From assembly GCF_005490785.1 (NCBI RefSeq), contig NZ_CP027295.1, forward strand, positions 992,001 through 1,056,000: 64,000 nucleotides of DNA, given 5' to 3'. Both the position numbers and the translations under genes were made by a program. This document shows, one piece after another, positions 15,578 to 50,227 of this stretch. Each line of letters starts with the position of its first letter. Within the stretch, counting starts at the first letter, position 1. A model generated the notes under the pieces. The model saw only the letters and a program-made list of their open reading frames with translations. It was not told the origin of the DNA and made no database searches. Origin of the DNA: Brachybacterium sp. SGAir0954. GTDB taxonomy: Bacteria; Actinomycetota; Actinomycetes; Actinomycetales; Dermabacteraceae.

Positions 15578-16846
15578 TCAGGCGACCTCGTCGAGCGGGG
15601 CCTTCCAGGCGTTGCACGCGGCCAGGTCGCCGTCGGCCTCGAGGCCCTTCTTGATCCAGCGGGCGTGGGTCTCCGCGGTGACCGCGGGGCCGTCCTGCCA
15701 GGTCTTCGGGTCGGAGAGGATGCCGCGCACCGTCTCGCTGGGCTGCGCGGCGGTCGGGACGCGCATCGACATCAGGCTCGCCACGCAGATGTTCTGCGAG
15801 GCGTAGCGGCGCTTCGCCTCCGCCTGGCGGTCGGGATCGTCCTCGAGGCCCTGGGACATCTGGCTGTAGTAGATGCCGATCGTGCTGTCCCACCAGCCCG
15901 CGTTCACGTAGCTGTAGGAGAGGTCCCACAGGTAGGCGGTGGAGAGCTCCGCCTCGTCACCCACCGCGCCCGAGGCGCCCATCTCGTGGGCGATGCCGGA
16001 GCCGGAGGGCCAGTAGATCGTCCCGTCGATGTTGCACACGCGCGGGGTCTCCGCGTCGAAGGTGTCCGGCTCGCAAACGGCGCTCGAGGGGACGTCCGGG
16101 TGCTTGTAGACCACGAGCGAGCGGTTCGACCACGGGAGCTCGCGGTCCGAGCTCGCCGTGGACCACACCGAGCTCAGGCAGCCGCCCGCGGCGTCGAGCG
16201 TGGCCTGCAGCTGCTCGTCGGAGGGCTCCTTCGGCGTGCCCGGCAGCTCACAGCTGCCGATCGTGCTCACGGTGCCGGAGGTCATCGGGTTGTCCTCGAG
16301 GATCGACCAGATCTCGTCCGGGGTCTTGAGCGACTCGCCGTAGGGATCGGCCGGCTCGAAGGCGGCGCCCTCGGAGGATCCGGAGACCGTGGGGGCCTCC
16401 GTCGTCGCCTCCGTGGTGGGCTCCTCCGTGGGGCTCCCGGAGGTGGTCGGAGCGGCCGTGGGATCGTCGCCCCCGCCGCTGCGGTTCAGCAGCACGGTCG
16501 CGGTGATGATGCCGATCCCGAGGAACAGCGCGAGCACGCAGCCGATCGCCACGAGGATCAGCGGCCACTTCTTGCGCGGCGGCGTGGGCGGCTGCGGCGC
16601 ACCGTAGGCGGGGGAGCCGCCGTACGGGCCGCCCTGCGGCGCCCCGCCCGGGGACGGCTGCCCCCATGTCGGTGGCTGCTGCGGGGACGGCTGCTGCGGC
16701 GCGGGACCCCACCCGCCCTGCTGGCCGGGCTGCTGGCCCGGCTGCTGGGACCAGCCCTGCTGGCCCTGCGGGTTCTGGCCCCAGCCCTGCTGCGACGATC
16801 CGTCCTGAGAGGACGGCCCTTGGCCGCCCCAGCCCGACTGCGACAT
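15578..16846 (-). CDS. Membrane-anchored metallopeptidase-like protein lacking the zinc motif
   Basis: 422 residues. The first 95 are rich in Gln, Gly and Pro. One membrane segment follows (WPLILVAIGCVLALFLGIGI), then a Thr/Glu/Pro-rich linker and a folded extracytoplasmic domain with six cysteines. Around residue 270, PRVCNIDGTIYWPSG is followed by GIAHEMGASG, which aligns with the YCP-D-x-x-IY ... HExGH region of neutral zinc metallopeptidases (YpfJ-like), but the second zinc histidine is absent. It is therefore probably a non-catalytic relative, perhaps a binding or structural protein at the cell surface. The family link is my inference from pattern and cysteine spacing. Confidence 0.6.
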   Translation of the reverse strand: MSQSGWGGQGPSSQDGSSQQGWGQNPQGQQGWSQQPGQQPGQQGGWGPAPQQPSPQQPPTWGQPSPGGAPQGGPYGGSPAYGAPQPPTPPRKKWPLILVAIGCVLALFLGIGIITATVLLNRSGGGDDPTAAPTTSGSPTEEPTTEATTEAPTVSGSSEGAAFEPADPYGESLKTPDEIWSILEDNPMTSGTVSTIGSCELPGTPKEPSDEQLQATLDAAGGCLSSVWSTASSDRELPWSNRSLVVYKHPDVPSSAVCEPDTFDAETPRVCNIDGTIYWPSGSGIAHEMGASGAVGDEAELSTAYLWDLSYSYVNAGWWDSTIGIYYSQMSQGLEDDPDRQAEAKRRYASQNICVASLMSMRVPTAAQPSETVRGILSDPKTWQDGPAVTAETHARWIKKGLEADGDLAACNAWKAPLDEVA

Positions 16847-17298: not shown

Positions 17299-17853
17299 TC
17301 AGATCTCATACTCGATCAGCTGGTGGTAGGCGCGGTTGCGGTACACGAGCGGCTCCGCGTCGAACACCTGCGCGCGATCCGCGGCGACGAGCACCAGGTG
17401 GCTGCCGCCCGCCGGGACGCGCTGCAGCACGTGCCCGCTGATCCAGCCGGAGGTGCCGCGCAGCACGGGCTCCCCGGTGGGCAGCTGCTGCCAGTCCGCC
17501 TGGGCGAAGCGGTCCACGCCGGAGGTCGCGAACACGGTGGAGACCTGACGCTGGTCCGCCGCGAGCAGGTTGATCGTCACCGACTCCGCCCGGGAGACCG
17601 CGGGCCACGAGGAGGACGTGTCGTTGATCGAGAAGGCGAGCACCGCCGGCTGCGCGGAGACCGAGATGACGGAGGTCGCGGTGAAGCCGACGGGCACGCC
17701 GTCGTCCAGCAGGGTGACGACGGCGACGCCCGCCGGGTGACGGCGGAACAGGGCGCCGAAGCTCTCCCGGTCCAGGGCGCCGTCCAGCGACGCGGCCTCG
17801 GCGGGATGGGCGACGTCGCGGTCCGGCTCGGACGGATGGGGCGCGGTGGTCAT
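17299..17853 (-). CDS. Flavin reductase family protein
   Basis: 184 residues of the flavin reductase-like (HpaC/RutF) domain family. Key segments are FRRHPAGVAVVTLLDDG, GFTATSVISVSAQPAVLAFS and NLLAADQRQVSTVFA. It reduces free FMN or FAD with NAD(P)H for partner monooxygenases. It is a close paralogue of the gene at 24572-25129; the two share most of their sequence from FRRHPAGVAV onward. No monooxygenase lies next to it, but a palindrome at its -35 position is shared with the organosulfur operon promoter, so it may serve that system. GAGGAG precedes the ATG. Confidence 0.85.
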   Translation of the reverse strand: MTTAPHPSEPDRDVAHPAEAASLDGALDRESFGALFRRHPAGVAVVTLLDDGVPVGFTATSVISVSAQPAVLAFSINDTSSSWPAVSRAESVTINLLAADQRQVSTVFATSGVDRFAQADWQQLPTGEPVLRGTSGWISGHVLQRVPAGGSHLVLVAADRAQVFDAEPLVYRNRAYHQLIEYEI

Positions 17854-17946
17854 CGGTTCTCCTCGGGTGCTCCGTGGAATCGGGTGCCGTGCGGACGCGA
17901 GATGCAGGGGTCGACACGGGACCCGTCGACAGGGGGCGTTCCGTCG

Positions 17947-17986
17947 ACAGTAGGAGCGGCGCCGCGCCGCCGTCATGTTCGTGACG
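17947..17986 (-). promoter_or_regulatory. Promoter with palindromic operator shared with the organosulfur operon
   Basis: Read leftward, TACTGT (17952-17947) is a -10 box. The palindrome CGTCACGAACATGACG (17986-17971) covers the -35 position. In a 20 nt window, GGCGTCACGAACATGACGGC here and GGCGTCACGTCTGTGACGGC at 30496-30515 differ only in the central 4 nt. The spacing to the -10 box is 18 bp here and 17 bp there. Confidence 0.6.
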
Positions 17987-18019
17987 CCAGATGACCACAT
18001 GCGTCCTGGGGCCCTCCGC

Positions 18020-19021
18020 TCAGGCGTGCACCGGACCGGTCGACGCCCGCACGTGCAGCACGGGGTCCACGACGCTCGAGGTGTCGTGGCTGCGGCCCTC
18101 GAAGCGCTCCCGCAGCATCCGTGCGGCGAGCCGCCCCATCTCGCCGCGCGGCTGGTGGACGCTCGTGAGGTGCGGGCGCACGGTGAGCGCGACCGCGGAG
18201 CCGTCGTAGCCCACGACGCTCAGGCGTCCGGGGACCTCCACCCCGAGGTCCGCCGCGCGGTGCAGCACGGAGACCGCGGCCATGTCGTTCGCGGTGAACA
18301 CCGCGGTGGGGGCGTCCGCGTCGCCGCGGCGCACGGAGCGCAGCAGCGTGGTGATGCCGTCCTCCGCACGGTCCGGGCCGATCACCGTCGCCGTGCCCCT
18401 CAGCCCCCGCCGCTCCGTCTCGGCGAGGAAGCCGGTGCGGCGGCCCGCCGGTCCCGGGCGCGAGGAGAGGGTCACGTGCGCGAGGCGGCGGTGCCCGAGC
18501 TCGACGAGGTGGCGCACCGCGAGCGCCGCACCGGCCTCGTCGTGCGTGCGCACCGCGTCCGTGCCGGGCACCGCGTCCTGCATCCGCCCGATCACCGTCA
18601 CGGGGACCACCTGCACGGCCCGGTCGAGGGCCGACGGCCGCAGCCACGTGGTCACCGCGACGATGCCGTCCACGCCGAGGTCCAGCAGGCGCTGCAGCTG
18701 CGCCTCGAGGTGCTCGGGGTCCCGCCGCCCGTGCGCGATGACGACACCGAGGCCCAGCGCATCGGCCTGACCCTCGATGCCCGCGATGACGTCCGTGTGG
18801 TACGGGTTCCCGAGGTCCGTGGGGAGCACGCCGATCAGCCCGCTGCCCCGCCCGCGCCGGCGATAGCCCAGGTGCCGCGCCGCCTCGAGCACCCGCAGCC
18901 GCGTCCCCCGGGAGACGCCGGGGCGGTCGTTGAGCGCCATCGACGCGGAGCCGGGGGAGACGCCCGCGGCCCGGGCGACCTGCGCGAGCGTGGGCCGGGA
19001 GGAGTGGGGACCATGGGTCAT
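18020..19021 (-). CDS. LacI-family transcriptional regulator
   Basis: 333 residues. The DNA-binding domain is TLAQVARAAGVSPGSASMAL and the effector domain runs from SGLIGVLPTDLGNPYHTDVI to SVVGYDGSAVALTVRPHLTS. In the recognition helix, PGSASMAL replaces the usual RATVSRVL, so the operator may be atypical. ATG 19021 was chosen; a GTG 15 nt upstream is possible. It is divergent from the HAD/ECF operon, whose transporter it may regulate. Confidence 0.85.
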   Translation of the reverse strand: MTHGPHSSRPTLAQVARAAGVSPGSASMALNDRPGVSRGTRLRVLEAARHLGYRRRGRGSGLIGVLPTDLGNPYHTDVIAGIEGQADALGLGVVIAHGRRDPEHLEAQLQRLLDLGVDGIVAVTTWLRPSALDRAVQVVPVTVIGRMQDAVPGTDAVRTHDEAGAALAVRHLVELGHRRLAHVTLSSRPGPAGRRTGFLAETERRGLRGTATVIGPDRAEDGITTLLRSVRRGDADAPTAVFTANDMAAVSVLHRAADLGVEVPGRLSVVGYDGSAVALTVRPHLTSVHQPRGEMGRLAARMLRERFEGRSHDTSSVVDPVLHVRASTGPVHA

Positions 19022-19062
19022 GCCCCGATCCCACACCCGCGGGAGCCCAGGTCAGAGCCGGG

Positions 19063-19078
19063 TCTGAAGAGTTTCAGA
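19063..19078. promoter_or_regulatory. Palindrome between the divergent LacI and HAD/ECF genes
   Basis: TCTGAAGAGTTTCAGA has exact 6 bp arms around a 4 nt spacer. It sits 41 nt from the LacI start and upstream of a candidate rightward -10 box (TAGCGT, 19142-19147), a sensible place for the divergent LacI protein to bind, though it lacks the central CG of usual LacI sites. Confidence 0.4.
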
Positions 19079-19197
19079 TCTCCTGGCCGAACGGTGGGCG
19101 ACGGTTCATCCGCTGTTCACGATGGGACCGCGAGGCCTCCGTAGCGTCGGGCATGCCGATCGGGGACCCGCCCCTCGGCCCCGCCCCGAGGAGCCCC

Positions 19198-20922
19198 GTG
19201 TCCACTACGACCCGACCCGCCGCGACCGACGCCGACCCGACGGACGCCGCCGCGCTCGCCGCCGCCGATCCCGCGACCGCCCTGCCCGCGCCCCGCGCCC
19301 TGCTGCTCGACTTCGGCGGCGTGGTCGTGACGACGGCCCCGCGGGCCGGCTGGGCGCGCGAGCTCGCCGCCGAGGTGGTCCGGCGTGCCCAGGCGATGGG
19401 CCTCCCGGCGGAGCAGGGCGAGGTCGAGGCCTCGCTGCGGGCGGGGCGCACCGCGCTCTCGCTGTGGAAGAACGCCTCCTCCCGCCGCCCCGAGCCGCGG
19501 GAGCTCACCGCCCGCGAGATCGTCGCCGAGATGCTGCTCGCGGATCTCCCCGACGCGCTCCGCCACGGACTCGCCCTCGAGGCGGGGGAGCTGCTCGAGG
19601 CCATGGCGCCGATCGTCGCGGACCACCACGTGCGCCCCGGCATCCCCGCCCTGCTCGAGGCCGCGCGCGAGCACGGCGTGCGCCTCGCGATCGTCTCCAA
19701 CGCCCACTCCGGCCGCGCCCACCGGGCGATCCTCGCCGAGGCCGGTCTCGCGGACGCGTTCGCGGTGCAGATCTACTCCGACGAGGTCGGCATCCGCAAG
19801 CCGCACCCGGGCATGCTCCTCCTCGCCGCCGAGGCCCTCGGCGTGCGGCCCGAGCAGGCCTGGTACGTGGGGGACACCTACGACCGCGACGTCGCGGCGG
19901 GCCGCCGCGCCGGGATCGGCGCCCTCGTCATCACGCGCGACCACCGCACCGACCACCCGCCCTTCGCCGTCACGGACCGCCCGGACCTCGAGCTCGACAG
20001 CCCCGAGGAGCTGCTCGCGCCGATGCTGCGGGCGCTGCGCGACGCGGCCGACGGCGGCTCCGCCTCCGTCGCGCCCTCCGCCTCCGCCGCCCCGTCGGCC
20101 GGCGCCCCGTCCGCCCTCGCCCCGTCGCCGGGCCGGCCCGCGCTGCTGCTCGACCACGGCGGCGTCATCACCCTCTCCACCCCCGCCCCCGACCGCTTCA
20201 CCCGGATGGGGGAGCGGATCGCCGCCCTCGCCGCGCAGGTGGGCGTGCCGCTCGAGCCGTCCGAGGCGACGGCCGCCGTCGAGGCCGGCTGGGACCGCCA
20301 CCGGGCCCGCAAGCACGAGCGGGACGCAGGAGGCGACGGCACCCACACCGAGATCCCCGCCGCCGAGCTCTGGGGCGACCTCGTGGGCCAGGACCTCCCC
20401 GCGGCCCTCCGCCCCGCGCTGCGGCTCGAGGCCGCGGAGCTCTCCCTCGCGCTGCACCGCGCGAAGTCCGAGCCCGCCCTGCGCCCCGGCGCCCTCGAGC
20501 TCATCACCTGGGCACGCGACCACGGGATCGTCGTCGGCATCGTCTCGAACACGATCTCCGGCCGCGGCGTGCGGGAGATCCTCGAGCGCCACGGGGTCGC
20601 CGCGATGATCGGCCCCGCCGCGTACTCGGACGAGGTCGGCGTGCGCAAGCCCGGCCGCGCGATCTTCGAGGCCGCGCTCGCCGGCCTCGAGACCCTCCCC
20701 GCCGACGTCGTCTACGTGGGGGACAAGGCCGTCAACGACGGCCGCGGCGGCACCGAGGCCGGCATCGGCGCCGTGTGCCTGCTGCGCGGCGGGAAGGACG
20801 AGGAGCCCGCCCTCGCCCGGGCCCTCGCCGTCGGCCACGCCGACCACGTCCTCGACTCCCCGGCGCAGGTGATCGACGTGCTCGCCGCGCGCCTCGCCCT
20901 CACCACCGCCACCGCCCCCTGA
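19198..20922 (+). CDS. Tandem HAD-family hydrolase (two fused domains)
   Basis: 574 residues from the GTG at 19198, which has GAGGAG 5 nt upstream; an ATG at 19153 is possible. Two complete HAD domains are joined by an Ala/Ser/Pro linker (about residues 285-315). Each has all four motifs: D38 in LLLDFGGVV, IVSNAHSG, IRKPHPG and YVGDTYDRD in the first; D319 in LLLDHGGVI, IVSNTISG, VRKPGRA and YVGDKAVND in the second. In both, motif I is DxGG, without the second aspartate of classical phosphatases. It leads an operon with a full ECF transporter, so it may dephosphorylate the imported vitamin-like compound or a derivative. Confidence 0.75.
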   Translation: MSTTTRPAATDADPTDAAALAAADPATALPAPRALLLDFGGVVVTTAPRAGWARELAAEVVRRAQAMGLPAEQGEVEASLRAGRTALSLWKNASSRRPEPRELTAREIVAEMLLADLPDALRHGLALEAGELLEAMAPIVADHHVRPGIPALLEAAREHGVRLAIVSNAHSGRAHRAILAEAGLADAFAVQIYSDEVGIRKPHPGMLLLAAEALGVRPEQAWYVGDTYDRDVAAGRRAGIGALVITRDHRTDHPPFAVTDRPDLELDSPEELLAPMLRALRDAADGGSASVAPSASAAPSAGAPSALAPSPGRPALLLDHGGVITLSTPAPDRFTRMGERIAALAAQVGVPLEPSEATAAVEAGWDRHRARKHERDAGGDGTHTEIPAAELWGDLVGQDLPAALRPALRLEAAELSLALHRAKSEPALRPGALELITWARDHGIVVGIVSNTISGRGVREILERHGVAAMIGPAAYSDEVGVRKPGRAIFEAALAGLETLPADVVYVGDKAVNDGRGGTEAGIGAVCLLRGGKDEEPALARALAVGHADHVLDSPAQVIDVLAARLALTTATAP

Positions 20923-20969
20923 GCTTCCCCTCCCCGCATCCGGTCCGCCCCACCCCCGAGGAGCACCCC

Positions 20970-21896
20970 ATGTCCACCCAGGTCCCCCCGCGTCCCGCCG
21001 AGGACGAGCGCCGCGGCGCCCTCCGCGGCACCATCGACGGCATCCGCCGCACCGAGCTGTCCACCTCGCAGAAGCTCATGATCTTCGTGCTCTCGATGTC
21101 GCTGTTCGGGCTCTCGAACATCATCCTCGAGATCATCCCGGACCCCTCCATCGGCCCTGTCGACGTCTCCGTCTCCTACATGGTGTTCGTGCCGCTCACG
21201 GTCGCCGCCCTGTTCTCCCCGTTCTGGGCGGCGCTCGGTGCGCCGCTCGGCGAGATCGTCTTCACCGACCTGCTCATGGGCGACTTCTCCGGCCTCGCCG
21301 AGGTCGAGGGCTTCCTGCAGATGTTCCTCGCCGTGTTCATCGCCGGCTCCCTCGTGCGCAACCCCCGCTCCCGCGTGCAGATCGCGATCGCCTCGGTCGT
21401 GCTGGTGCTCGTGGACAAGGTGCTCTCCGCCGTCGTGGACCTCTCCAAGGTGTGGATCGGCGTCGAGGACGCCGAGCTCGTCGAGGGCCTGCCGCAGTCG
21501 ATGCTCGCCCTCGAGACGATCGGCCTCGGCGTGGACGTGATCATGAGCGGCGTGCTGCTCGGCGCGATCCCCGCCATGTGGCTGATCCCCGCCCTGCACG
21601 GGAAGATCGAGCCGCTCATGGGCATGCGCCCCCGCGTCCCCGGGGAGCCGATCCCCGGCGCCGCCCCGCGCACCCCGCTCTTCGTGGGCGGCGCGCTGCT
21701 GCTGAGCGTCGCGAGCTTCGGCTTCGCCTTCCTCGAGGCCTTCGACATCTCCGCCGGGGCCTTCGAGCCGGACTTCATCGACCGCTTCGGCAGCGGCTTC
21801 CTGCTCGTCGCCGTCGCCGCGATCGCCGTGGTGCTCACCGTCGCCGTGCTCCTGTTCCGGCTCTCGCGCCGGGCCGCCGAGACCGCCGGCTCCTGA
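20970..21896 (+). CDS. ECF transporter substrate-binding (S) component
   Basis: 308 residues with a charged 40-residue cytoplasmic N-terminus and about six membrane segments, among them QKLMIFVLSMSLFGLSNIIL, MVFVPLTVAALFSPFWAAL, IAIASVVLVLVDKVLSAVV and FLLVAVAAIAVVLTVAVLLF. Size, topology and position directly before EcfA and EcfT genes identify it as the S unit of an energy-coupling factor importer. The ligand cannot be read from the sequence. Start at ATG 20970 with GAGGAG 7 nt upstream, the same pattern as the HAD gene before it. Confidence 0.7.
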   Translation: MSTQVPPRPAEDERRGALRGTIDGIRRTELSTSQKLMIFVLSMSLFGLSNIILEIIPDPSIGPVDVSVSYMVFVPLTVAALFSPFWAALGAPLGEIVFTDLLMGDFSGLAEVEGFLQMFLAVFIAGSLVRNPRSRVQIAIASVVLVLVDKVLSAVVDLSKVWIGVEDAELVEGLPQSMLALETIGLGVDVIMSGVLLGAIPAMWLIPALHGKIEPLMGMRPRVPGEPIPGAAPRTPLFVGGALLLSVASFGFAFLEAFDISAGAFEPDFIDRFGSGFLLVAVAAIAVVLTVAVLLFRLSRRAAETAGS

Positions 21897-21931
21897 TGCG
21901 CTCGACCCCTCGCCATCGACCCCGGAGCGCC

Positions 21932-23716
21932 ATGACCGCCCTGCCCCCGACCCTCGCCGTGCCGGCCCCCGCCGCCCCATCGGCCGACGCCGCGCCGCCC
22001 GCGATCGTCGTGAAGGACCTGTCCTTCCGGTATCCCGGCACGGACCGCGACGCCCTGCGCAACGTCGATCTCACGATCGAGCGCGGCGACTTCGTCGCGG
22101 TGGTCGGGGGCAACGGCTCCGCCAAGACCACCCTGTGCAAGACCTTCAACGGCCTCGTCCCGCACTACTGGAACGGCGACTTCGCCGGCGTCGTGCACGT
22201 GGACGGCGTGGACACCTGGGACTCCTCCGTCGCGGAGCTCTCGAGCCGCGTCGGCTACGTCTACCAGGACTTCCAGAACCAGCTCGTGCGCCCCACCGTG
22301 CGGGAGGAGGTCGCCTTCGGGCCCCTGAACTTCGGCCACGCCGACCACCGCGAGCGCACCGAGGAGGCCCTCGCGGCGCTCGGCATCGCCCACCTCGCGG
22401 ACCGCTTCGTCTGGCAGCTCTCCGGCGGTCAGGCCCACCTCGTCGCGCTCGCCGCGGTGCTCGCCCTGCGCCCCGAGGTGATCGTCGTCGACGAGCCCGT
22501 CGCGGAGCTCGACCCCGCCCGCGCCCGCGAGATCTACCTGCGCCTGCGGGAGCTGAACACGCGCCACGGCATCACCGTCGTCACCATCGAGCACCACGCC
22601 GAGTTCGTCGCCGATTTCGCCCGCTCGGTGGTGCTCATGGCCGACGGCGCCCCCGTCTGGCACCTCCCCGTGCAGGAGGCGATGGACCGCCACGGCGACC
22701 TCCGCGCCCACGGCATCCCCGCCCCCGATGCGGTCGCGCTCACCGCGGCCGTCGGCGCGGAGCGGGTCGCCCTCGACGTCCCCTCCGCGGTCACCGTGCT
22801 GCGCGAGCACCTCCGGCCCGCGGCCGAGCGGAGCGGCCCGTCGGCCCCCGTCCCGGGCCCGGCTCCCGAGCCCGCCCCCGCAGAGGTTGTCGCGTCCCTG
22901 CGCGGGGTCAGCCACGGCTACCGGGGCGTGGACGGCTCCCTCTCGACCGTCCTCGACGACCTCTCCCTCGAGCTCCGCGCGGGGGAGCGGGTCGCGCTCG
23001 TGGGCACCAACGGCGCCGGCAAGTCCACGCTCATGCGCCTGCTGACCGGGCTGATCGTGCCCCGCGCCGGCACCGTCGCCGTGGACGGCATCGACACCCG
23101 CACCCGCTCCGCCTCCCTCCTCGCGGACCACGTCTCCTACCTCGACCAGCACCCCCAGCGCATGTTCCTCAAGGACACCGTGCGCGAGGACGTCGCGCTC
23201 TTCCCGCGCGGTCGCAAGGTGCCCGACGCCGAGGCGATCGTGGACCGCATCCTCACCGAGGTGGGGCTCACCGAGCTCGCCGGGCGGGACGGCCGCACCC
23301 TCTCCGGCGGGCAGCAGCGCCGCTCGACCCTCGGCATCGGCCTCGCCATGCGGCCCCGCCTGCTGCTGCTCGACGAGCCCACCTCGAGCCTCGACATCCG
23401 CTCCCGCGACGACGTCACCGCCATGCTCGCCGCGCTCGCGGAGACCGTGCGCTGCGCCGTCGTCGCGACCCACGACATGGACCTCGTCGCCGCCTGGGCG
23501 ACCCGCGTGATCGTCCTGGACCAGGGGCGCGTGCTCGCCGACGCCGCCCCGCAGGCGCTGTTCGCCCGGCGCGAGATCACCGGCCGCGCTCGCCTCACCC
23601 CGCCGCAGGCCGCCCGGATCGCCCTCGAGCTGGGCCTGGACCCGCTGCCGCTCACCGCGACGGCGCTGCGCGAGCACCTGCGCACCGTCGGCCCCGACCC
23701 CACCCAGGAGCACTGA
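21932..23716 (+). CDS. ECF transporter ATPase, fused A and A' domains
   Basis: 594 residues with two ABC ATPase domains. The first (residues 28-270) has Walker A GGNGSAKT (59-66), signature LSGGQAHL and Walker B VIVVDEPVAELDP; the second (about 320-560) has GTNGAGKST, LSGGQQRR and LLLLDEPTSSLD. The first Walker A carries alanine (A64) where the consensus has glycine, directly before the lysine. The second catalytic glutamate is intact. It powers the importer with the S and T units flanking it; its stop overlaps the EcfT start (TGATG). Confidence 0.85.
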   Translation: MTALPPTLAVPAPAAPSADAAPPAIVVKDLSFRYPGTDRDALRNVDLTIERGDFVAVVGGNGSAKTTLCKTFNGLVPHYWNGDFAGVVHVDGVDTWDSSVAELSSRVGYVYQDFQNQLVRPTVREEVAFGPLNFGHADHRERTEEALAALGIAHLADRFVWQLSGGQAHLVALAAVLALRPEVIVVDEPVAELDPARAREIYLRLRELNTRHGITVVTIEHHAEFVADFARSVVLMADGAPVWHLPVQEAMDRHGDLRAHGIPAPDAVALTAAVGAERVALDVPSAVTVLREHLRPAAERSGPSAPVPGPAPEPAPAEVVASLRGVSHGYRGVDGSLSTVLDDLSLELRAGERVALVGTNGAGKSTLMRLLTGLIVPRAGTVAVDGIDTRTRSASLLADHVSYLDQHPQRMFLKDTVREDVALFPRGRKVPDAEAIVDRILTEVGLTELAGRDGRTLSGGQQRRSTLGIGLAMRPRLLLLDEPTSSLDIRSRDDVTAMLAALAETVRCAVVATHDMDLVAAWATRVIVLDQGRVLADAAPQALFARREITGRARLTPPQAARIALELGLDPLPLTATALREHLRTVGPDPTQEH

Positions 23717-24534
23717 TGGCCCGCACGACCCACGACGTCCTCAGCGTGGAATGGGTGCGCCTGGAGCTGCTGCGCACCGCCTACTCCACCCGCGGCGGCC
23801 TCTTCTCCCGCATGGACCCGCGCGTGGTCCTCGCCTGGTACCTGCTCATGGCGCTCGCCCCCTGGTTCACCCACTCCACCGGGGTGCTCGCCCTGCTGTT
23901 CGCGCTCGGCGCGGTCTCCGTGGCCCTCGCCCGGGTGGGCCCGCTCGTGCTGGGCCTGTTCCTCATCGGTCTGCTGGGCAACGTCGTGGGGCTGTTCGCC
24001 GCCTCGTTCCTGTTCGGCGGCGACCTGGGCACCCTCGTGGCGCTCGCGGAGCTGAACCTCAAGCTCGGCGCCGTGTCCATGGCCTCGATGGCGGCGTTCG
24101 TGTCCCTGGACCCGGAGAAGCTCTCCGACGCGCTGCTGTGGTTCCGCGCCCCGGAGCTGCTCGCCTTCGGCGTCTCCTACGGCTACCGCATGCTGCCGAT
24201 CCTCGTGGACGAGTACGTGACGGTCTTCGAGGGGCAGCGCCTGCGCCACGCCCCCGTGGAGCGACCGGGCCTGCTGGGATGGCGCGTGATCCTGCAGTGG
24301 TGCACGCTCGCGGTCACCGCGTTCTACCCGATCATGCTCAACACGGCGAAGAACGTGCGCACCACGGTCGAGGCCCTCGAGACCCGCGGCTTCACCTACG
24401 CCGCCGCGAACCCTGTGGGCCGGCGCCTGCGCCTGGCCTCCCTGCGCACCGCAGGCCTCGACTGGGTGGTGCTCGTGGTGAGCGTCGTGGCGGTGCTCGC
24501 CGCCTACCGGCTCGGGGCGCTGCTGCCCCTCTGA
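23716..24534 (+). CDS. ECF transporter transmembrane (T) component, EcfT
   Basis: 272 residues with several membrane segments (VLALLFALGAVSVALA, LVLGLFLIGLLGNVVGLFAA, LDWVVLVVSVVAVLAAYRLG). VEALETRGFTYAA matches the coupling helix that carries the A-R-G type motif of EcfT proteins and contacts the ATPases. The ATG shares bases with the stop of the ATPase gene, so the two are translationally coupled. Last gene of the HAD-S-A-T operon. Confidence 0.8.
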   Translation: MARTTHDVLSVEWVRLELLRTAYSTRGGLFSRMDPRVVLAWYLLMALAPWFTHSTGVLALLFALGAVSVALARVGPLVLGLFLIGLLGNVVGLFAASFLFGGDLGTLVALAELNLKLGAVSMASMAAFVSLDPEKLSDALLWFRAPELLAFGVSYGYRMLPILVDEYVTVFEGQRLRHAPVERPGLLGWRVILQWCTLAVTAFYPIMLNTAKNVRTTVEALETRGFTYAAANPVGRRLRLASLRTAGLDWVVLVVSVVAVLAAYRLGALLPL

Positions 24535-24571: not shown

Positions 24572-25129
24572 TCAGATCTCGTACTCGAGGAGATGGTGGT
24601 ACGTGCGGTTGCGGTACACCAGCGGCTCCTCGTGGGACAGCTGCGCCCTGTCTGCGGCGACGATCACGACGTGGCTGCCGCCCGCGGGGACCCGCTCCAG
24701 GATCCGGCCGCTGATCCAGCCGGCGGTGCCGTAGAGCACCGGCTCCCCGGTGGGCAGCTGGTGCCAGTCCACCTGGGCGAAGCGGTCGATGCCGGAGGTC
24801 GCGAAGACGGTCGAGAGCTGCCGCTGGTCCGCGGCGAGCAGGTTCACCGTGACCGTCGCCGAGCGGGACAGCGCGGGCCACGCGGAGGAGGTGTCGTTGA
24901 TGGAGAAGGCGAGCACCGCGGGCTGCGCGGACACGGAGATCACCGAGGTGGCGGTGAACCCGATCGGGCGGATCCCGTCGGTGAGGGTGATGACGGCGAC
25001 CCCCGCGGGGTGCCGGCGGAACAGGGCCGCGAAGGTCTCGCGGTCCAGGAGCCCGTCGGCGTCCGTCGGCCGACGGGCGGCGGGGGCCGTGGTCGGTGCG
25101 GTGGTGATGGTGGTGGTCTCAGGCGACAT
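24572..25129 (-). CDS. Flavin reductase family protein of the organosulfur operon
   Basis: 185 residues, paralogous to the gene at 17299-17853 (shared FRRHPAGVAV, GFTATSVISVSAQPAVLAFS, NLLAADQRQ). It should hand FMNH2 to the two LLM monooxygenases encoded just upstream, one of which it overlaps by 11 bp. GAGGAGG lies before the ATG. Last gene of the ssu-like operon. Confidence 0.85.
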   Translation of the reverse strand: MSPETTTITTAPTTAPAARRPTDADGLLDRETFAALFRRHPAGVAVITLTDGIRPIGFTATSVISVSAQPAVLAFSINDTSSAWPALSRSATVTVNLLAADQRQLSTVFATSGIDRFAQVDWHQLPTGEPVLYGTAGWISGRILERVPAGGSHVVIVAADRAQLSHEEPLVYRNRTYHHLLEYEI

Positions 25130-30827: not shown

Positions 30828-32477
30828 TCAGCGACGGGCCGCGGAGCGCAGCTCGTGCGGGGTGGTGGCGTCGGCCCGGGTCTCGAGGCCCTGCCCGGCC
30901 ACGACCTCCGGGGCGATCGGGTCGCCGTCGGAGTCGTCCTTGAACAGGTTCGAGGTCGCGGGCCATGGCAGCAGCGACAGGGCGATGCCCGCCACGAGCA
31001 GCGCGAGCGCCATCAGCCAGCCGAACACCACGATGAACCAGCCCGGGTACCCCGAGTAGGTGGTGGGCGAGGTGATCAGGTCGATCGTCGAGGAGACCAG
31101 CGAGACGCCCAGGACGACCGGTGCGATCAGGCCCACGCACACGAGCCACCAGCGGCCGATCGGGAAGGTGCCCCGATGGTTGAGGTGGTCGCGCAGGGTG
31201 GGCAGGCCGCGCACCACGTAGGTGACCACGATGGTGGAGACCAGTGCCGCCGCGACGATGCCGTACTCGTTGGCCCACTTGTCCAGCACGTCCAGCAGGG
31301 GCATGCCCATGGTCGTGGAGAACAGGGCCGTGGAGACCACCGCGAGCGGCACGCACACCCACAGCGTGGAGGAGATGCGGGAGAGCCCGAACTTGTCCTG
31401 GATCGCGGCGATGACGACCTCGACGATCGAGATCAGCGAGGTGAAGCCGGCGAGCACGAGCGAGCCGAAGAACAGCACGCCGATCAGGGCGCCGGCGGGC
31501 GCCTCGGAGATGATCGTCGGGAAGGCGATGAACGCGAGGCCGATCCCCGAGGAGACCACCTCGGAGACCTGCACGCCCTGTGCCTGCGCCATGAAGCCGA
31601 GCGCGGAGAACACGCCGATGCCGCACAGGATCTCGAAGCCCGAGTTCGCGAAGCCCACCACGAGGCCGGAGCCGGTGAGGTCGGTCTTCTTCTTGAGGTA
31701 CGAGGAGTAGGTGAGCATGATGCCGAAGGCGACGGACAGCGAGAAGAAGATCTGGCCGTAGGCGGCGACCCACACGCCCGGGGAGAGCAGCGCGGCCCAG
31801 TGCGGGCGGAACAGCGCCTCGAGGCCGTCGATCGCGCCGGGCAGGAACAGTGCCCGGATCACGAGGATGACGAACATGATCACGAGCAGCGGGATGAACA
31901 CGACCGAGCTCGCGGAGATGCCCTTCTGCACGCCGAGCGCCATGACGACGATCGTCGCGATCCACACGACGACCATCGACACCAGCACCGCGGGCACCAC
32001 GTCGAAGGAGATGTGCACGTCCGTGCCGGAGAGGGCCTGCGTGTACTGGCCGAAGAAGGCGTTCGGGTCATCGCCCCAGCGCTGGTCCAGCGAGAAGATC
32101 ATGTAGTTCGTGGCCCACGCGAGGATCAGCGCGTAGTACAGCGCGATGACCAGGGCGATGAGCACCTGCCACCAGCCGATGAACTCGGTCCAGCGGCGGA
32201 ACCGGCGCCAGGCCGCGGGGGCGGATCCGCGCCAGCGGTGGCCGATCGCGTAGTCGAGGAAGAGCAGCGGGATGCCGGCCGTGAGCAGGGCGACGAGGTA
32301 CGGCAGGATGAACGCGCCGCCGCCGTTCTCGTAGGCCACGGCGGGGAAGCGCCAGATGTTGCCGAGGCCCACGGCGGAGCCGATGGCCGCGAAGATGAAC
32401 GAGGTGCGCCCCGAGAAGGCGCCGCGGTCGGCGCGGCGGGCGCCGGCCTCGGCGGGTGCGGGGGAGTGTGCGCTCAA
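30828..32477 (-). CDS. metP: NSS-family sodium-dependent transporter, MetP-like
   Basis: 549 residues with about twelve membrane segments. The N-terminal FIFAAIGSAVGLGNIWRFPA is the sodium- and substrate-binding first helix of neurotransmitter:sodium symporters, followed by ENGGGAFILPYLVALLTAGIP. With the small MetS partner downstream it probably imports methionine and alanine. The start is TTG 32477 with GGAGG 9 nt upstream; no better start exists before the Gly/Pro-rich out-of-family sequence. A perfect 18 bp palindrome lies in the leader. Confidence 0.85.
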   Translation of the reverse strand: MSAHSPAPAEAGARRADRGAFSGRTSFIFAAIGSAVGLGNIWRFPAVAYENGGGAFILPYLVALLTAGIPLLFLDYAIGHRWRGSAPAAWRRFRRWTEFIGWWQVLIALVIALYYALILAWATNYMIFSLDQRWGDDPNAFFGQYTQALSGTDVHISFDVVPAVLVSMVVVWIATIVVMALGVQKGISASSVVFIPLLVIMFVILVIRALFLPGAIDGLEALFRPHWAALLSPGVWVAAYGQIFFSLSVAFGIMLTYSSYLKKKTDLTGSGLVVGFANSGFEILCGIGVFSALGFMAQAQGVQVSEVVSSGIGLAFIAFPTIISEAPAGALIGVLFFGSLVLAGFTSLISIVEVVIAAIQDKFGLSRISSTLWVCVPLAVVSTALFSTTMGMPLLDVLDKWANEYGIVAAALVSTIVVTYVVRGLPTLRDHLNHRGTFPIGRWWLVCVGLIAPVVLGVSLVSSTIDLITSPTTYSGYPGWFIVVFGWLMALALLVAGIALSLLPWPATSNLFKDDSDGDPIAPEVVAGQGLETRADATTPHELRSAARR

Positions 32478-49709: not shown

Positions 49710-50017
49710 GGGGTCTCCAGCGGGGAAGGGAACGAGGAGGAGCGGATGTCGGGGCGCGGCGGTGTGAGTACGGTCACCCGCGACGCCGTGGGGGGAACAG
49801 TAGCGCGCGGAGCGGCCCTCCCCGCCCCGTCGAGGGCCGTCCGTTATCCGACCGCAACCCCGCCGGCCGCGCGGAGGGTGCCCCCGCCGGGCCCGACGCC
49901 CCTGCGCCGCTCGTGCTCGATCGGCTGTCGCCATGCGGCGTGTCGCCCTGGGTGAGGCCCGTGACATCACCGCTCCGCGGTTCGGCAGAGCGCCCGGACT
50001 TCGCTAGACTCGTCCGC
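49710..50017. other. Intergenic region between AGCS symporter and SRP RNA genes
   Basis: 308 bp without a gene. It holds a CRP-like site (49763-49778), a candidate leftward -10 box TACTGT (49802-49797), and, at the right end, TAGACT (50005-50010) with TTCGGC 18 bp upstream as a rightward promoter for the SRP RNA. Confidence 0.55.
49763..49778 (-). promoter_or_regulatory. CRP/GlxR-like binding site
   Basis: TGTGAGTACGGTCACC matches the TGTGA-N6-TCACA consensus at nine of ten positions. It lies between the candidate -10 box and the AGCS start, where binding would repress. Confidence 0.45.
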
Positions 50018-50105
50018 GACCCCTCGTGCGGTGTCATCTCGCTGAACTCCCCCAGGGCCTGACGGCAGCAAGGGCAGGTGGGCTCTGGCAGGTGCACGAG
50101 GGGTC
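50018..50105 (+). ncRNA. ffs: Signal recognition particle RNA (4.5S type)
   Basis: The ends pair perfectly (GACCCCTCGTGC at 50018-50029 with GCACGAGGGGTC at 50094-50105). Inside is the conserved SRP domain IV: CTGAACTCCCCCAGG, then GCC-TGAC-GGC and CAGCAAGGGCAGG. The apical loop is UGAC rather than the GGAA of E. coli. Together with Ffh it targets membrane proteins. A promoter (-10 TAGACT) sits 7 nt upstream of the helix. Confidence 0.92.
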
Positions 50106-50227
50106 GTCTCATGCCCGCGAGGAGGGAAGCCCCCGGATCCCGGATGCCTGGCGAGCCGGCTGCGCACCGGCCCCGCTCCCCACGGGCGTCGGTACGATCG
50201 AGGCGAACCCACCGGAAGGGGCCCGCC

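Follow-up and report, generated by a model that had tools for sequence, protein, structure and literature searches.

The established solutes of energy-coupling factor (ECF) importers are mainly vitamins and metal ions, and in the dedicated systems (Group I) the S component, the ATPases A and A' and the T component are encoded together. Uptake of nutrients that already carry a phosphate is described for binding-protein ATP-binding cassette (ABC) importers. AfuA of the AfuABC system is reported to bind glucose 6-phosphate, fructose 6-phosphate and sedoheptulose 7-phosphate at nanomolar affinity, with contacts to the phosphate through Ser37 and Thr150 and to the sugar through His205, Asp206 and Glu229 (PMC4546632); P5PAB, described by the same group, is reported to import pyridoxal 5'-phosphate (PMC8427247). 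The locus considered here lies in a stretch of 64,000 nucleotides of Brachybacterium sp. SGAir0954 (the window; contig NZ_CP027295.1, positions 992,001 to 1,056,000, of a 3.41 Mb single-contig genome). Positions 18020-24534 of the window hold a divergent LacI gene followed by genes for a tandem HAD protein, an ECF S component, a fused A-A' ATPase and a T component. With moderate confidence we read this cassette as encoding a dedicated ECF system that takes up a phosphorylated, probably sugar-like solute, which then loses its phosphate inside the cell. The phosphohydrolase family (HAD, PHP, inositol monophosphatase or IMPase, ComB) and the regulator family (LacI, RpiR) are exchanged around S. 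Searches of an open-access library, in which most subscription journals are absent, gave no title or abstract start that describes the system.

The cassette and its conservation

The features of the cassette are the following (positions in the window):

18020-19021, minus strand: divergent LacI-family regulator with LacI HTH and Peripla_BP_3 domains (Pfam); ATG start, with an alternative GTG start at 19036
19063-19078, no strand assigned: putative LacI operator TCTGAAGAGTTTCAGA, judged probable from words conserved in the genus and from palindromes in the corresponding gap of relatives
19103-19147, plus strand: promoter-like stretch GGTTCA...TAGCGT, a presumed promoter, the two words of which occur in all 12 genus sequences
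19198-20922, plus strand: tandem HAD protein with two HAD domains (Pfam, NCBIfam), HAD1 at about 19291-19932 and HAD2 at about 20134-20895
20970-21896, plus strand: ECF S component with two extra C-terminal helices, without a Pfam or NCBIfam match
21932-23716, plus strand: fused A-A' ATPase with two ABC_tran domains, above cut-off for NCBIfam ECF_ATPase_1 and ECF_ATPase_2
23716-24534, plus strand: T component, above cut-off for PF02361 CbiQ

The first-pass annotation, made from the letters of the window, had named a tandem HAD protein with motifs I-IV and DxGG in motif I, the three importer units and a divergent LacI protein, and all are located as it claimed, by open reading frames, Pfam and NCBIfam and, for S, by a structure model. 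The HAD reading frame spans 19153-20922, with GAGGAG ahead of the GTG start at 19198, and the T gene start overlaps the end of the A-A' gene (TGATG). S, T and two ATPases are thus encoded together, as in dedicated ECF systems, and A-A' and T belong to known families. The first Walker A motif of A-A' (about 22110-22136) reads GGNGSAKTT, with Ala where Gly is usual; the 11 genus relatives all share this form, which also occurs in several further genera; many others read GGNGSGKTT.

Unlike Group I importers, the S component has no Pfam or NCBIfam family at E<=0.01 and is accompanied by a phosphohydrolase and by a regulator of the LacI or RpiR family. It therefore does not match PF12822, the ECF S component family from which a 2024 survey of the S fold works (PMC11109136). 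Its AlphaFold2 model (mean pLDDT 78) resembles the six-helix ECF S fold: residues ~29-220 align to FolT, ThiT, RibU and PanT with Z 11.7-12.8, and the top 18 structure matches are all ECF S components (Z 9.9-12.8, the next match 6.2), although the comparison tool itself cautions that Z under 13 for helical bundles may reflect a common arrangement. Foldseek gives a best E of only 0.075 (RibU), and the sequence profile finds no solved S component at significance. In the model two additional helices (236-257 and 276-307) follow the S-like part. An AXXXA motif in helix 1 is said to characterise ECF S components (PMC11109136); here helix 1 reads LSMSLFG in the window, with small residues at 44 and 47, and the exact motif is absent. 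No relative of S was found on viral contigs, nor any match at E<=0.001 in a BFVD fold search.

Both HAD domains carry the nucleophile Asp, Ser, Lys and acidic pair (motifs I-IV) of subfamily IA, namely D53-F-G-G, S182, K216 and G-D241-T..D246 in HAD1 and D334-H-G-G, S465, K499 and G-D524-K..D529 in HAD2, all invariant in 28 aligned sequences. The two domains are 34.5% identical and in the AlphaFold2 model (pLDDT 87) align to HAD structures with Z 20-23. Their fold and four motifs are those of subfamily IA phosphatases such as phosphoglycolate phosphatase, AlnB and the MtlD phosphatase domain, from which the protein differs in joining two domains in one chain and in its DxGG motif I; we regard it as a phosphatase-like enzyme. 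Both halves are present in 114 of the 115 loci with HAD, the exception (L091) being cut by a contig end.

S is found in 12 of 47 genomes of the family, every one in the genus of the window. Across the order it is present in 41 of 396 genomes, which belong to 15 of 110 genera. The tandem HAD protein likewise occurs in 41 of 396 order genomes (E<=1e-30), and both together in 40; in G171 S is only weak (E 1e-12) and not detected by tblastn in the fetched stretch, and in G364 HAD is single-domain only. The order LacI(divergent)-HAD-S-AA'-T is kept in 11/11 genus loci, 30/31 order loci and 67/80 GTDB loci (the best 80 of 181 relatives of S in the GTDB scan; the same genomes recur among the three sets). 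GTDB relatives include Nocardiopsis, Glycomyces, Streptomyces, Rhodococcus and Bacilli (Salibacterium, Aquibacillus). The order-level exception, L051, has HAD downstream and reversed and no LacI. Among the 13 deviating GTDB loci are four of Bacilli with PHP and RpiR, four whose S lies no more than 360 bases from the end of a contig (L095, L114, L134, L140), two whose contig stops before LacI (L091, L131), two cut before T or A-A' (L129, L141) and one rearranged as in L051, on a contig equal in length to that of the L051 genome (L130). In L025 (genome G027) the S and HAD genes are each broken across frames, by decay or sequencing errors. Since the same gene order recurs throughout these sets, chance is excluded as its cause; the first-pass annotation had made its proposal depend on the pairing of HAD and S being conserved, and in relatives it is.

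A divergent LacI homologue is present in 11/11 genus and 30/31 order loci, and the lacI-HAD gap of relatives holds CTGGAACGTTCCAG palindromes. With up to two mismatches, the 30 order loci contain 40 such sites in 11.5 kb of gap versus 0 in 405.9 kb outside. A CTGGAACGTTCCAG-type site occurs in 29 of 41 loci; the 12 without it are the 11 genus relatives and L047. At the corresponding place 11 of the 12 genus sequences have CTGAAGNNTTTCAG, and the twelfth, L018, has GTGCAGATCTGCAG. Genome-wide, at up to one mismatch, 25 of 26 genomes have the site: 16 at the cassette only, 7 at the cassette and elsewhere and 2 (G129, G343) only elsewhere. The genome of the window (G000) has none, since its genus uses a diverged one. 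By these sites the module looks locally controlled, 19063-19078 is a probable LacI operator, and LacI presumably represses the operon. HAD/S co-occurrence, the kept gene order and the concentration of LacI-type sites in the lacI-HAD gap support LacI, HAD and importer as one conserved unit. A word search of the text of a LacI regulon review (PMC4052901) gave no hit for ECF, cobalt, vitamin or haloacid.

Exchange of partners and importers

In four named Bacilli loci HAD and LacI are replaced, and S-AA'-T stands between a divergent RpiR and a PHP-domain protein. S occurs in 24 of 299 genomes of that Bacilli order, including these four; 17 of the other 20 loci are RpiR-S-AA'-T-PHP, one lacks PHP (L220) and two are incomplete (L225, L226). 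No common palindrome was found as an RpiR operator in Bacilli. In a phylum-wide draw of Actinomycetota S matches were found in 9 of 396 genomes, 3 of them cassette genomes of the order; five of the six other loci (L177-L181) possess S-AA'-T with PHP and RpiR downstream, while the sixth (L182, with a weak S match) shows neither by tblastn.

A plasmid search gave five records with S. The Streptomyces cavourensis plasmid has the HAD/LacI form and the Niallia plasmid the PHP/RpiR form. The three remaining records are haloarchaeal and constitute the evidence for that lineage: in Halopiger S-AA'-T is followed by an IMPase gene, with a second IMPase on the opposite strand, in Halobacterium it stands beside ComB and then PHP, and in Halostagnicola beside ComB. 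A gene of sugar phosphate isomerase/epimerase type (L174:4936-5721) is divergent from S in Halostagnicola.

The importer itself is also exchanged around the same partners. The single HAD of G364 is nearer HAD1 (41%) than HAD2 (30%) and is part of a permease-ATPase-binding protein-IMPase-HAD-IMPase operon. HAD matches occur in 13 of 198 genomes of its genus (Microbacterium-type); eight of the 13 carry the ECF cassette (G111, G124 and G1275 among them), six loci (L252, L274-L278) have a Fe/AfuA-type ABC importer with HAD and IMPase, and G1275 has both forms. One of the six, L277, is a 4.2 kb contig without permease. In two of the six (L277, L278) a LacI of the cassette's subfamily is present (45% identity, 232-243 bits; six other LacIs, of which three are nearly alike, score 91-144 bits), its recognition helix near-identical to that of the cassette LacI. 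L278 has the operator-like ATGGAACGTTCCAC at the permease start; no such site is shown in the other five loci.

PHP occurs in 22 of 229 genomes of Bacilli, and seven loci away from S were read, with Pfam run on some of their genes. Two of them (L306, L307) are organised as RpiR(divergent)-PHP-binding protein-permease-ATPase-Cof-type HAD, with ABC parts 32-44% identical to those of L252; genome G990 carries both the ECF form (L212) and the ABC form (L307). A gene for L-rhamnose mutarotase (L306:8339-8653, Pfam) and a look-alike (L307:7755-8069) lie close to these operons. Three loci (L303-L305) combine PHP and IMPase with another binding-protein ABC importer, and the operons that hold PHP in L308 and L309 include no importer.

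Among solved structures, the relatives of the Microbacterium-type binding proteins, all weak, are iron-named proteins and AfuA, the latter at a profile E of 4.8e-6. An ABC importer broadly similar to AfuABC (PMC4546632) accompanies the HAD(/LacI) and PHP/RpiR partners that elsewhere go with the ECF importer, and import of a phosphorylated carbohydrate, as reported for that system, is proposed here. As for P5PAB (PMC8427247), an intact phosphorylated nutrient would be taken up; P5PAB is, however, a binding-protein ABC and not an ECF system, and its abstract names no phosphatase partner.

Genomic surroundings

Two flavin reductase genes of the same family flank the cassette (17299-18000 and 24572-25129), and beyond them lie genes which we take to encode a luciferase-type monooxygenase and an alkanesulfonate-type ABC system. 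The reductases brought up a flavin as solute, a candidate set aside after a tblastn search of the 15 kb stretches from 11 genus relatives detected neither gene. A gene of the sodium:neurotransmitter-symporter family (30828-32477) recurs near the cassette in 10 of the 11 relatives, and homologues of an unnamed 422-residue protein (15578-16846) in 6. The cassette thus appears to occupy a location shared within the genus, into which other genes came in the window. A bacterial small SRP RNA is located at 50015-50111.

Nature of the solute

In the mechanism we propose, S, the fused A-A' and T would capture a scarce solute, most likely a sugar or polyol, to which a phosphate is already esterified. 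The tandem HAD protein would remove the phosphate inside the cell, leaving the organic part to general metabolism, and LacI, at the operator between lacI and the HAD gene, would presumably release the operon when solute or product is present. A phosphorylated solute is suggested by differing importers and several phosphohydrolase families sharing the same partners; we infer its entry in phosphorylated form, its sugar-like nature and the action of the enzymes on it once imported. Uptake and processing had been proposed in the first-pass annotation, and the proposal has gained strength from the recurrence of a phosphatase-like enzyme with a sugar-type regulator in unrelated phosphohydrolase and regulator families.

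Several observations weigh against this proposal. In both HAD domains Gly at +2 of motif I replaces the Asp+2 acid/base (28/28 sequences); DxGG in motif I is also found in other HAD proteins. The one named solved relative of the PHP protein, PsfC, is weak, and we take PsfC to have an unusual activity. A sulfatase-family protein with a CVPSR stretch accompanies PHP in L303 (4378-5772) and L305 (7105-8487), and L304 has a gene in a similar position; the ester may thus in some cases be other than a phosphate. These same points favour a reading in which HAD, PHP, IMPase and ComB act on another ester, such as a sulfate, or regulate the importer, with no common phosphatase role. The HAD, IMPase and ComB families are, however, named for phosphate-ester hydrolases, and a chance convergence of several unrelated families on one importer is unlikely, so we consider that reading very improbable.

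The associated binding proteins supply adverse points as well. Their best solved match is an iron-named protein, and unlike AfuA they have Ser and Lys at the H205 and D206 positions (profile of seven binding proteins against 4r72_A, a weak alignment with inferred chain numbering). Filing the exchanged importer as AfuABC was dropped on this account, and for the same reason the ligand of AfuA cannot be claimed for it. The binding protein of L306 in Bacilli has no AfuA match at E<=0.01, and its score with a putative aminoethylphosphonate model is low. In the same locus the Cof-type HAD shows a resemblance to sugar phosphatases and to pyridoxal phosphatases, at scores under their cut-offs. With P5PAB as a binding-protein precedent (PMC8427247), the latter resemblance bears on the import of a phosphorylated vitamin (pyridoxal phosphate, flavin mononucleotide) and its dephosphorylation for cofactor salvage. 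ECF transporters are, moreover, best known as vitamin importers. Against such a solute, no riboswitch is present in the window at Rfam gathering scores, the regulators are LacI or RpiR, and one related operon type includes the sulfatase-family protein; we judge it improbable. Pyridoxal phosphate is a possible solute by analogy, given that it is carried by an importer of broadly the same type. The "cofactor precursor" of the first-pass annotation finds no backing: no link between the locus and a cofactor pathway was found, and a phosphorylated sugar-like solute is indicated at least as well by the neighbouring phosphatases and the exchangeable ABC importer.

Two further adverse points concern charge and regulation. 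At eight positions of S (65, 95, 100, 113, 157, 166, 169 and 182) 18-19 of 19 sequences have an acidic residue, and on the predicted external side, its sidedness being presumed, the conserved charges are mostly acidic, with one equally conserved lysine (K160), which is odd for an anionic ligand. That acidic residues exclude phosphate was considered and dropped, AfuA contacting phosphate through Ser/Thr. The canonical phosphate loop of the SIS domain in phosphosugar-sensing RpiR regulators is S-x-S-G-x-T, and by eye against this motif it is missing in 28 of 28 RpiR partners; the argument that RpiR means phosphosugar was dropped accordingly. Both points suit the uptake of a scarce and perhaps cationic solute that resembles a sugar or vitamin and arrives without phosphate, to be phosphorylated by a cellular kinase, the HAD, PHP or IMPase enzyme then hydrolysing an intermediate or side product. 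Known ECF ligands are indeed mostly free vitamins and metals, and dihydroxyacetone kinase genes lie directly 3' of the PHP gene in Salibacterium (L153, 11321-13308, Pfam), with genes of similar size downstream of PHP in L155 and L158, likened to them from the Pfam run on L153. The non-cassette neighbours common to at least four of 42 loci and the window comprise a symporter, a PTS permease, a radical SAM protein, an asparaginase, a dehydrogenase, a RelA/SpoT protein and one unnamed protein, but no Pfam-named kinase (gene calling was crude), and one of the weak solved relatives of the exchangeable ABC importer is a sugar-phosphate binder. An unphosphorylated solute is in our view rather unlikely.

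Nor are the LacI-type sites strictly private to the cassette: 15 distal near-matches occur in 9 of 26 genomes, versus 1 match of a reversed control. At the seven inspected (six stretches) no sensible LacI target was seen; most lie inside apparent coding frames and one pair (L255) between divergent genes. They may mark additional targets, or other LacI proteins with like sites.

Returning to the import of a phosphorylated sugar-like solute, we tentatively propose, with less confidence than our reading of the cassette itself, an undescribed ECF family importing phosphorylated sugars or polyols in two bacterial phyla and haloarchaea, as an interchangeable kit in which one kind of solute is served by at least two kinds of importer (ECF and Fe/AfuA-type ABC), by phosphohydrolases of four or more unrelated families and by regulators of two or more families. 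If true, the range of ECF importers would extend beyond vitamins and metals, probably to phosphorylated carbohydrates. Genes annotated as "hypothetical protein" would become directly testable, given an ECF family coupled to phosphohydrolases, and the swapping of phosphohydrolase, regulator and importer around one solute would provide several independent handles on its identity.

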